Positions 22,507-23,739 of a stretch of DNA of 23,739 bases are shown here, piece after piece (position 1 is the stretch's first letter; each line of letters begins with the position of its first letter). Source of the DNA: a virus; the IMG/VR virus record IMGVR_UViG_3300006802_000579, positions 1 through 23,739 of that record; one strand, 5' to 3'. Both the position numbers and the translations under genes were made by a program. A model generated the notes under the pieces. It saw only the letters and a list, made by a program, of their open reading frames with translations. It was not told the DNA's origin and made no database searches.

Positions 22507-22610
22507 TCTTCTTCTGCAAACTCCTGGCATACAGGACAAAGACCATTAACTAATTCATCCTCCCAAAAAGGATGCCAACAGTTATCACAATCAACTACAG
22601 GAATTGTCAT
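22503..22610 (-). CDS. 35-aa CxxC-CxxC zinc-ribbon protein
   Basis: The ORF encodes MTIPVVDCDNCWHPFWEDEL-VNGLCPVCQEFAEEE. Two CxxC pairs, about 15 residues apart, make a minimal zinc ribbon. The coding end overlaps the metallopeptidase ATG (ATGA). No SD precedes it; instead an extended -10 (TGaTATAGT) lies so close that transcription should begin at the ATG itself, giving a leaderless mRNA. It could be a small nucleic-acid-binding or partner protein of the metallopeptidase. Function unknown. Confidence 0.65.
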   Translation of the reverse strand: MTIPVVDCDNCWHPFWEDELVNGLCPVCQEFAEEE

Positions 22611-22616
22611 ATAGAA

Positions 22617-22627
22617 ACTATATCATA
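22617..22627 (-). promoter_or_regulatory. Extended -10 promoter, leaderless start for the zinc-ribbon gene
   Basis: The minus strand reads TATGATATAGTT; the -10 hexamer is TATAGT (22622-22617) with TGA before it. Six nt separate the hexamer from the ATG at 22610, so the expected first base is the A of ATG. There is no clear -35, which is acceptable for an extended -10. Confidence 0.6.
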
Positions 22628-22636
22628 AAGTAAAGA

Positions 22637-22652
22637 CCTCGGTTGCCCGAGG
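22637..22652 (-). terminator. GNRA-tetraloop terminator
   Basis: Minus strand: CCTCGG-GCAA-CCGAGG then TCTTTACTTTAT. A 6-bp GC-rich stem with a stable GCAA tetraloop and a U-rich though interrupted tail. It lies about 90 nt after an extended -10 promoter and just before the next promoter, which fits the end of a short RNA. Confidence 0.6.
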
Positions 22653-22727
22653 CCTAAACTTATACATACACAATAGAAAGGAGGAAACTTTGAACGAAAC
22701 CTTTGAGGTTTGCAAGTTATCCTAACT
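22637..22727 (-). ncRNA. Candidate ~90-nt small RNA with an anti-SD (CCTCC) segment
   Basis: From an expected start near 22727 to the terminator above there is no ORF of note. The RNA would hold AAACC-TCAAA-GGTTT (5-bp hairpin), then CCTCCTTTC in a region without strong pairing, then the terminator hairpin. CCTCCTTTC is the perfect complement of an ideal SD, GAAAGGAGG. C-rich unpaired stretches of this kind are used by regulatory RNAs of Gram-positive bacteria to block SDs. Promoter, hairpins and motif are seen; that the RNA exists and acts on mRNAs is inferred. Confidence 0.5.
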
Positions 22728-22733
22728 GCTATA

Positions 22734-22744
22734 ACTATATCATA
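22734..22744 (-). promoter_or_regulatory. Extended -10 promoter for the small RNA
   Basis: Minus strand TATGATATAGTT, identical over 12 nt to the promoter at 22616-22627. The -10 is TATAGT (22739-22734); start expected near 22727. No good -35 hexamer. Confidence 0.55.
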
Positions 22745-22825
22745 CTTTAAATTTTATGGGGTAAGTTTTTAAGTAAGGAGGCTTTACAAAAAAAAGTACC
22801 CTAAATAATTTTACTATATTTAATT

Positions 22826-22837
22826 TATGGTATAGTT
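22826..22837 (+). promoter_or_regulatory. Extended -10 promoter for the pseudoknot RNA
   Basis: Plus strand TATGGTATAGTT; -10 TATAGT (22831-22836) with TGG before it. It differs by one base from the two minus-strand promoters. A weak TTTTAC stands at -35 spacing (16 nt). Start expected near 22843. Confidence 0.55.
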
Positions 22838-22842
22838 GAATT

Positions 22843-23146
22843 TAAGAAACACGATAGATTGCAGGCATTTAGAACAATCTATCAGATTAGAAAACAAATT
22901 AAGTGGACTTGCCTGACCATGGTAACTAGGGTTAAAGCCTATTATTCTACATTTGTTTAATTGCTGCGATATGGAGTTAATTCGGTTTGGGAGGGCGTAG
23001 CACAGGGTAAGAACCTTTAATTATCTTTATTCAGATATAACTTGCTAGTAAAAGAACAGGCCTAATCTCTTGTAGTTAACAGTATATTTTTAGAGGGTAC
23101 ACTAATTAATAAGTGGGGGTCAACCTTAAACCTCCCCCCATATTTT
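22843..23146 (+). ncRNA. Candidate structured noncoding RNA of about 300 nt
   Basis: No ORF of useful length is present, but there is a promoter at one end and a terminator at the other. Visible structure: a perfect 9-bp hairpin (GATAGATTG 22853-22861 with CAATCTATC 22875-22883). Its loop begins CAGGCA (22862-22867), which is complementary to TGCCTG at 22910-22915, allowing a 6-bp pseudoknot. A TAGG/CCTA stem follows, then GCTGCG (22963-22968) with CGTAGC (22996-23001), 6 bp with one G-U pair. It does not match what I remember of tmRNA, RNase P RNA or 6S RNA. Pairings are seen; a functional RNA is inferred. Confidence 0.55.
23114..23146 (+). terminator. G/C-rich intrinsic terminator
   Basis: TGGGGG, 15 nt, CCCCCA followed by TATTTTATT: a 6-bp very GC-rich stem and a T-rich tract on the plus strand. 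It closes the candidate structured RNA. The run of six C bases stands out in this AT-rich region. Confidence 0.7.
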
Positions 23147-23165
23147 ATTGGTAAATATTACCAAT
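23147..23165. repeat. Perfect palindrome ATTGGTAAATATTACCAAT
   Basis: An 8-bp inverted repeat with a 3-nt centre (ATTGGTAA-ATA-TTACCAAT), directly after the terminator and adjoining the larger inverted repeat. AT-rich dyads like this are typical of repressor or replication-initiator sites. No bound protein is known. Confidence 0.5.
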
Positions 23166-23229
23166 TGTTTATACACTTTGTAGAGAAATATCTAGCATAT
23201 ATATTTGTTATTGCTCACTGTATAAACAA
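23165..23229. repeat. 11-bp inverted repeat flanking an AT-rich core
   Basis: TTGTTTATACA (23165-23175) and TGTATAAACAA (23219-23229) are perfect inverted copies with 43 nt of AT-rich DNA between them. TTATACACT within the left arm is one base off the DnaA-box form TTATNCACA. The layout could be paired operators or part of a replication origin; neither is shown. Confidence 0.5.
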
Positions 23230-23438
23230 GGTGAAAAGTAATACCATAGAAATTTAAACAACTACCCCCCGAATGCAAAACGACTAACTTTTATTCGGCT
23301 AACTCTTCTCAAAGTCTTCGGCCAATTCTTGCATCAAAATTAGAAACTTTTTTTATTTTTTTTTAAGTTTTTTTTTGCACCCTCAAAATCCCCAATGTTT
23401 ATAGGCTTTTAGCTTAGATATTTTTTATATATTTATTC
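23230..23438. other. Noncoding AT-rich stretch with long T-tracts
   Basis: No credible gene was found here. It holds ATGCAA (near 23274) that can pair with TTGCAT (near 23326), and runs of 7, 9 and 9 T bases between about 23348 and 23377. These T-tracts should bend the DNA and may act upstream of the promoter at 23447. A minus-strand 11-codon ORF (MQELAEDFEKS) is too short to support. Confidence 0.4.
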
Positions 23439-23459
23439 AATAGTTGTTGACAAACTATT
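23439..23459. promoter_or_regulatory. Inverted-repeat operator over the -35 box
   Basis: AATAGTT, 7 nt, AACTATT: a perfect 7-bp inverted repeat whose centre GTTGACA contains the -35 hexamer of the strong promoter. A bound repressor would block RNA polymerase. The repressor gene is not in this window. Confidence 0.6.
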
Positions 23460-23475
23460 AAAATCCCCCTATAGT
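23447..23475 (+). promoter_or_regulatory. Near-consensus sigma-70 promoter
   Basis: TTGACA (23447-23452), 17 nt, TATAGT (23470-23475). The -35 is a perfect consensus, the spacer is optimal and the -10 has five of six bases. It is the best promoter in the window. Expected start is near 23482. It points away from the late genes, so it likely drives early transcription or an RNA. Confidence 0.85.
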
Positions 23476-23481
23476 ATATCT

Positions 23482-23739
23482 TATACAAAAACAATAGAGA
23501 GGACCTTAACTCTTAAAACAAAGCTAAGGAAAATCGGCAAGGCAAGTACAGTCAAAATCGTGTTCAACTAAATACCTTGACAGAGGCATAAAGGCCCAAG
23601 GATACAGCGACTAGACCCAGTGAGAATGCTAGAGTGTAATCTAGAAAAACTCACCTTCGAGAGAAGATTGGTGGAGACACATAAAACAACCCGATAAGCG
23701 AAAAATTCAAGATTAAGAAACTTGTAACGATAAGTAAAA
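23482..23739 (+). ncRNA. Candidate structured RNA, runs off the right edge
   Basis: From the predicted start to the end of the window all three forward frames are broken by stops; the longest ATG frame is 23 codons. The sequence looks richer in G+C than its surroundings. Pairings: CCTTA (23504-23508) with TAAGG (23525-23529); CAAGG (23538-23542) with CCTTG (23575-23579), which could alternatively pair with CAAGG at 23597-23601; GTGAG (23620-23624) with CTCAC (23650-23654) enclosing CTAGA-6 nt-TCTAG; and directly adjoining CTTC-GAGA-GAAG (23655-23666), a GNRA tetraloop. It is either a long 5' leader or a stand-alone RNA. I do not recognise a family. Confidence 0.5.

Follow-up and report, generated by a model that had tools for sequence, protein, structure and literature searches.

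Does the gene-free stretch beside the late genes of an uncultured marine phage encode an RNA, and what might such an RNA do? The window analyzed here is a 23.7-kb piece (23,739 nucleotides) of the phage record, with a GC content of 34%. Its leftward-running genes encode the terminase, the portal, head proteins, and a protein of 2,091 residues. To the right of these genes, an ORF scan of positions 22540–23567 found no ORF of at least 40 residues on either strand. The candidate RNA (22843–23146) is located there, on the + strand and downstream of an extended -10 box. A first-pass annotation had proposed a noncoding phage RNA here: about 300 nt without a gene, between a promoter and a strong terminator, with a 9-bp perfect hairpin whose loop is complementary to TGCCTG downstream, a loop pseudoknot, and other stems. 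The absence of a gene held, as did the hairpin and the CAGGCA/TGCCTG complementarity, both by sequence. The noncoding reading is supported, in the absence of expression data, with the conserved unit narrowed to the first ~170 nt. The features of the region are as follows.

22828–22836, + strand: extended -10 element TGGTATAGT, read from the sequence, without a good -35 box
22845–23015, + strand: conserved RNA core of ~170 nt, the unit defining the family, captured by covariance model R1
22853–22883, + strand: hairpin P1, a perfectly paired 9-bp stem (22853–22861 with 22875–22883) and a 13-nt loop, supported by covariation
22862–22867, + strand: kissing-loop strand 1, CAGGCA, at the start of the P1 loop, pairing with 22910–22915
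22903–22920, + strand: hairpin P2, GTGG (22903–22906) with CCAT (22917–22920), supported by covariation
22910–22915, + strand: kissing-loop strand 2, TGCCTG, in the P2 loop, 42 nt past CAGGCA, supported by complementarity and covariation
22923–22944, + strand: hairpin P3, with bulged C22926 and the 7-nt loop G-U-N-A-N-A-G, supported by covariation
22947–22950, + strand: P4, 5' strand CTAC, pairing with 22997–23000
22984–23007, + strand: G-tract motif GG-TTT-GGG-A-GGG-CGTAGCACA-GGG, supported by tract conservation
22997–23000, + strand: P4, 3' strand GTAG, pairing with 22947–22950
23076–23139, + strand: 3' domain (TTAACAG ... ACCTCCCCCC), whose sequence is conserved within the phage group of the window and for which no helix is supported
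23147–23171, + strand: A+T-rich 8-bp hairpin ATTGGTAA-ATA-TTACCAAT followed by TGTTT, read from the sequence and kept in close relatives

The folding energy of the region shows no excess stability over shuffled sequence (z of 0.11 and -0.13), so only comparison decides whether the fold is real. Relatives of the portal protein led to 80 viral contigs, many with the RNA region. A pattern for the conserved centre retrieved more than 100 IMG/VR stretches, and a second pattern added more. The ~170-nt core is present in more than 100 marine viral contigs, one copy per record, and the R1 model built for 22845–23015 matches all terminase loci whose flanks are long enough, L058 and L076 being the only exceptions. 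In those two contigs the core is missing between the terminase and the early genes, a mutually similar stretch (AGGTRAAGAGGACATCAGGMGTACAAAAG) stands in its place, and the 3' domain is kept; a swap of RNA modules is one possibility.

A structure-free covariation search of 80 non-redundant cores ranked a loop-loop pair, 22864–22913, at the top (U-A in 43, A-U in 27, G-C in 10, all standard), followed by one pair of P3 and then one of P4. RNAalifold picked the loop-loop helix unaided. In 41 sequences aligned with MAFFT, blind to structure, paired cells make up 95.3% of those in 29 pairs, and 20 of the 29 pairs show double-sided changes; the covariation score is 0.454, compared to 0.160 for shuffled and at most 0.142 for slid controls, and the kissing loop, P2, P3, and P4 are each 100% paired. 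The result was reproduced with 83 distinct model-aligned sequences, for which the model did not contain the kissing pairs, and with a more diverse set of 50. By comparison, and without expression data, the core is a genuine structured RNA whose helices carry compensatory changes above controls. The first-pass annotation would have been refuted by a lack of covariation in homologues or by coding homology; covariation is strong for both the stem and the loop pairing, and coding homology was not found.

The conserved fold is built from four hairpins or helices and one loop-loop contact. P1 shows double-sided changes in all eight counted pairs, with 83–97% of cells paired depending on the alignment. 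Its CAGGCA has its partner in the 10-nt loop of P2, a hairpin with a 4-bp stem that also covaries; the proposed pseudoknot is therefore refined to a kissing loop of 6 bp. This contact is 100% paired in both the 41- and the 50-sequence alignments, with double changes in five of six pairs, and occurs as CAGGCA/TGCCTG, CCTGCT/AGCAGG, CAGACT/AGTCTG, CTAGCT/AGCTAG, GTAGCT/AGCTAC, and CTGGCT/AGCCAG. The P2 stem forms 4/4 pairs in all 50 sequences, in the versions GUGG/CCAU, GAGG/CCUC, GCCG/CGGU, GGGG/CCUC, and GAGG/CCUU, and a sixth version, GUCG/CGAU, is found in L198. The other predicted stems are likewise real, as P3 and P4. P3 consists of 3 bp, a bulged C, 4 bp, and the 7-nt loop, whose UNA might resemble a U-turn in our reading; its inner stem varies among UAGG/CCUA, UAGC/GCUA, UGGG/CCCA, and UUGG/CCAA, and its outermost pair is missing in part of a second phage group described below. 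L295, the most divergent member (78 bits), retains the fold; its kissing loop is CTGGCT/AGCCAG, and it has a rewritten P3 (AAU-C-GUCC-GUCAUAG-GGAC-AUU), in which all four inner pairs are replaced (GUCC/GGAC) and the bulged C and loop length are retained.

The 4-bp helix P4 closes a stretch of about 46 nt, largely variable as far as the G tracts, and pairs without gaps in 114 of 114 cores (UCAC/GUGA, UCAU/AUGA, CCAC/GUGG, CUAC/GUAG, CCGA/UCGG). The tracts follow the pattern GG-N2-5-GGG-N1-2-GGG-N8-9-GGG in 112 of the 114, with linkers that vary in length and letters; a two-layer G-quadruplex is conceivable, its folding being inferred from the tract pattern only. P1 has many G-U pairs, and P2 has one that is invariant in the window's group; these would be A-C on the other strand, which assigns the RNA to the + strand. 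Two relatives carry insertions of ~80–100 nt inside the RNA (L152 309–558 and L261 1326–1598); that of L152 separates P3 from the rest of P4 and leaves the flanking helices intact.

Several further pairings and motifs were considered and rejected. A conformational switch, with 22963–22968 as second partner for the P4 3' strand, has complementarity no better than mismatched or shuffled partners. One covarying pair hinted at a helix in the 3' domain, but its neighbours do not pair, and it is ascribed to shared ancestry. TTAACAG and GGGAGGG can be read as boxA-like and Shine-Dalgarno-like, with surrounding letters that are not conserved. Pairing of the G-rich motif with the C-rich 3' end is not general, as members without the 3' domain keep the motif.

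The boundaries of the transcript are inferred from sequence alone. The proposed promoter held as the extended -10 element, which places the transcript start near 22843. Of 124 relatives, 107 have a -10-like box at an almost fixed distance, compared to 26% of shuffled upstream stretches, and in 82 the box is preceded by TG. The claim of a strong terminator held only in part. The G5/C5 hairpin at 23114–23138 is terminator-like, but it is not conserved and was not called by a terminator scan. The hairpin at 23147–23171, itself A+T-rich and weak, is the better candidate and probably the RNA 3' end. Beyond the core, the 3' part is variable or missing in relatives; the 3' domain is absent from the second phage group and from L087, L089, and L176. 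In these three contigs, a small ORF replaces the domain and encodes a zinc-ribbon-like peptide of ~40 residues (LKKCKECxxxLKQ...).

A second, larger conserved noncoding stretch begins at 23482 and is cut off by the window end (23739); it reaches ~420 nt in relatives. It has strongly conserved blocks and lies between a promoter, TTGACA-17-TATAGT (23447–23475), and the first early ORF. This stretch also occurs in L001, L004, and L014, a pattern scan found it in only four contigs, and it has no Rfam match. It may be another structured leader RNA.

Is this RNA a known one? None of the 4227 Rfam 15 families (including GOLLD, ROOL, 6S, pRNA, tmRNA, and EAR) matches at gathering score, and searches of 22540–23739 and of L004 gave only chance-level matches (E of about 1 to 4). 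ARAGORN found no tRNA or tmRNA genes in the window and 13 related loci, no cultured-phage record matches the RNA region at the DNA level, and no description was found in the open-access literature searched, which excludes subscription journals and most preprints. The family is thus likely to be previously uncatalogued. In kind, the RNA belongs among the structured RNAs of phages, as do GOLLD and ROOL, which likewise are phage-encoded and covariation-supported, have loop-loop contacts, and lack a known function (PMC12286853); like GOLLD, it joins a conserved part to a variable one. It is nonetheless a separate, smaller family: ROOL measures 659 nt in a solved example, many GOLLD RNAs exceed 800 nt, and both often lie near tRNA islands (PMC12286853), whereas this core has only ~170 nt and the scanned contigs have no tRNAs. 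Loop-loop pairing is also central to the phi29 pRNA, another small phage RNA, but the Rfam model of pRNA does not match here and the terminase is of another type. 6S RNA and actinobacterial Ms1 are of similar size (200–300 nt) and are discrete transcripts, as this RNA is inferred to be. Both bind RNA polymerase and could be analogous in function should that enzyme be the target here. 6S RNA forms one long open hairpin; in contrast, this RNA has a multi-hairpin kissing fold.

The genomic setting of the RNA differs between two phage groups. In the window's group, the RNA lies on the strand opposite the terminase, 423–2246 nt from the terminase start in contigs with enough flank (L058 and L076 excepted). 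In 7/7 mapped contigs it is found where leftward late and rightward early genes diverge, on the side and in the direction of the early genes. In the window, G010, and L004, the early genes are served by separate TTGACA-type promoters. The second group (L109, L190, L276–L284, and others) has siphovirus tail genes and, in the loci at hand, no relative of the window's terminase. There, the RNA follows lysis genes and is boxed by an upstream terminator hairpin (AAAAAGAGGAG-ATTTGTAT-CTCCTCTTTTTTT) and a downstream one (GCTCTTGAGC-GCTCAAGAGC, or an unrelated GAAAGCCC...GGGCTTTC hairpin); the upstream and the second downstream hairpins were identified by eye and not called by scans. This boxing points, by inference, to a free-standing RNA gene of ~230 nt; a separate TTGACA promoter usually precedes the gene that follows. 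L295 represents a third setting, with the RNA upstream of genes running in its own direction. The genes that follow the RNA differ between and within groups, so a conserved downstream gene, the mark of an operon leader, is lacking. In L087, L089, L176, and L295, an ORF lies close behind the core without a visible terminator.

Individual contigs show further variation. In G001 (L199–L201), a gene for a 526-residue protein that reads as a DNA cytosine methyltransferase lies between terminase and RNA, 307–1887 nt left of the core. In the early arm of G004 (L205–L207), genes at +4657 to +7099 relative to the core encode a MoxR-type AAA ATPase and, after it, a large protein whose end may be VWA-like; no DNA polymerase was noticed there. 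G011 (L214–L216), a 52.6-kb contig, has its structural genes twice, probably because the assembly is chimeric or two phages have been joined.

Although their terminase, head, and tail differ, the two groups have in common the RNA and tail-fibre-like, holin, endolysin-like, and Mre11-like genes, from which we infer that they probably share hosts. Among cultured phages, it is mostly actinobacteriophages that carry the closest relatives of the portal and Mre11-like proteins, and the best terminase matches are Streptomyces phages. The GC content (33–34%) fits Ca. Actinomarinales, at 32.5% (PMC7771536). The host is likely to be a low-GC marine actinobacterium, as inferred from protein relatives and GC. 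It is not proven, since WhiB, a common actinophage marker, is absent in 16 records. Neither the core pattern nor portal relatives were found in one-per-species prokaryote genomes, and no prophage was found there.

We favor, with moderate confidence, the explanation that the phage makes a discrete noncoding RNA, which would work in trans on a machine of the host. In this model, host RNA polymerase would transcribe the RNA from its own extended -10 promoter up to a terminator behind the variable 3' part. The RNA would fold into a compact globule, of which P1 and P2 with their 6-bp loop pairing, P3, P4, the four G tracts, and unpaired letters are conserved by comparison, and would act early in infection by binding a host machine, most likely RNA polymerase or the ribosome. 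Its discreteness is supported by the flanking terminators of the second group, the separate promoter of the next gene, and the single copy per record; action on a shared host is inferred from the genes that two otherwise different groups have in common with the RNA. There are no expression data and no binding partner. Against trans action, the RNA of the window's group is always the first element of the early side, as expected of a cis leader, and against discreteness stand the four contigs with an ORF close behind the core and the weakness of the window's own terminator.

The chief rival, which remains possible, is a cis element heading the early operon, either a processive antitermination RNA like HK022 put or Bacillus EAR or a ligand-sensing leader that would control the early genes. 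Put and EAR are structured RNAs that head operons, and the position in the window's group, which never changes, fits them; the invariant unpaired letters are typical of binding pockets, and the ORFs close behind four cores would suit a leader. However, the second group carries the RNA as a boxed, free-standing unit ahead of a gene with its own promoter, the early genes of the window, G010, and L004 also have promoters of their own, the following genes are not conserved, and the EAR model does not match. A role in packaging or replication, as an RNA like phi29 pRNA, an origin transcript, or a site near the terminase, is unlikely. The terminase gene is indeed only 0.4–2.2 kb away in the window's group, and phi29 pRNA forms rings through kissing loops. 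Yet the second group has the RNA behind lysis genes and without that terminase, neither pRNA nor any other Rfam family matches, and the window's terminase is of the phrog_38 type, which to our knowledge has no RNA cofactor. It is least probable that the structure acts as single-stranded DNA, as an origin, recombination, or packaging hairpin. Covariation alone cannot separate RNA from single-stranded DNA, but the frequent G-U pairs on one strand, one of them invariant, the -10 box at near-constant distance, and the terminators behind the RNA all speak for transcription.

A bolder and less probable form of the trans-acting model is possible: a new class of phage RNA, in which a kissing-loop pair is joined to an intramolecular G-quadruplex, that would capture or reprogram the RNA polymerase or ribosome of uncultured marine Actinobacteria and pass between unrelated phages as a self-contained RNA gene for host takeover. 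Few structured RNAs of phages have a convincing fold, and for most of these no function is known. This one is short and has defined helices, which makes direct probing, structure solving, and testing feasible, and the R1 model can be used for metatranscriptome searches. The wide conservation of the RNA points to an important job during infection, a function that is inferred. Its wide spread among marine viral contigs, its near-universal presence in one phage lineage, and its occurrence in an unrelated one suggest strong selection and a target that is probably a host component.
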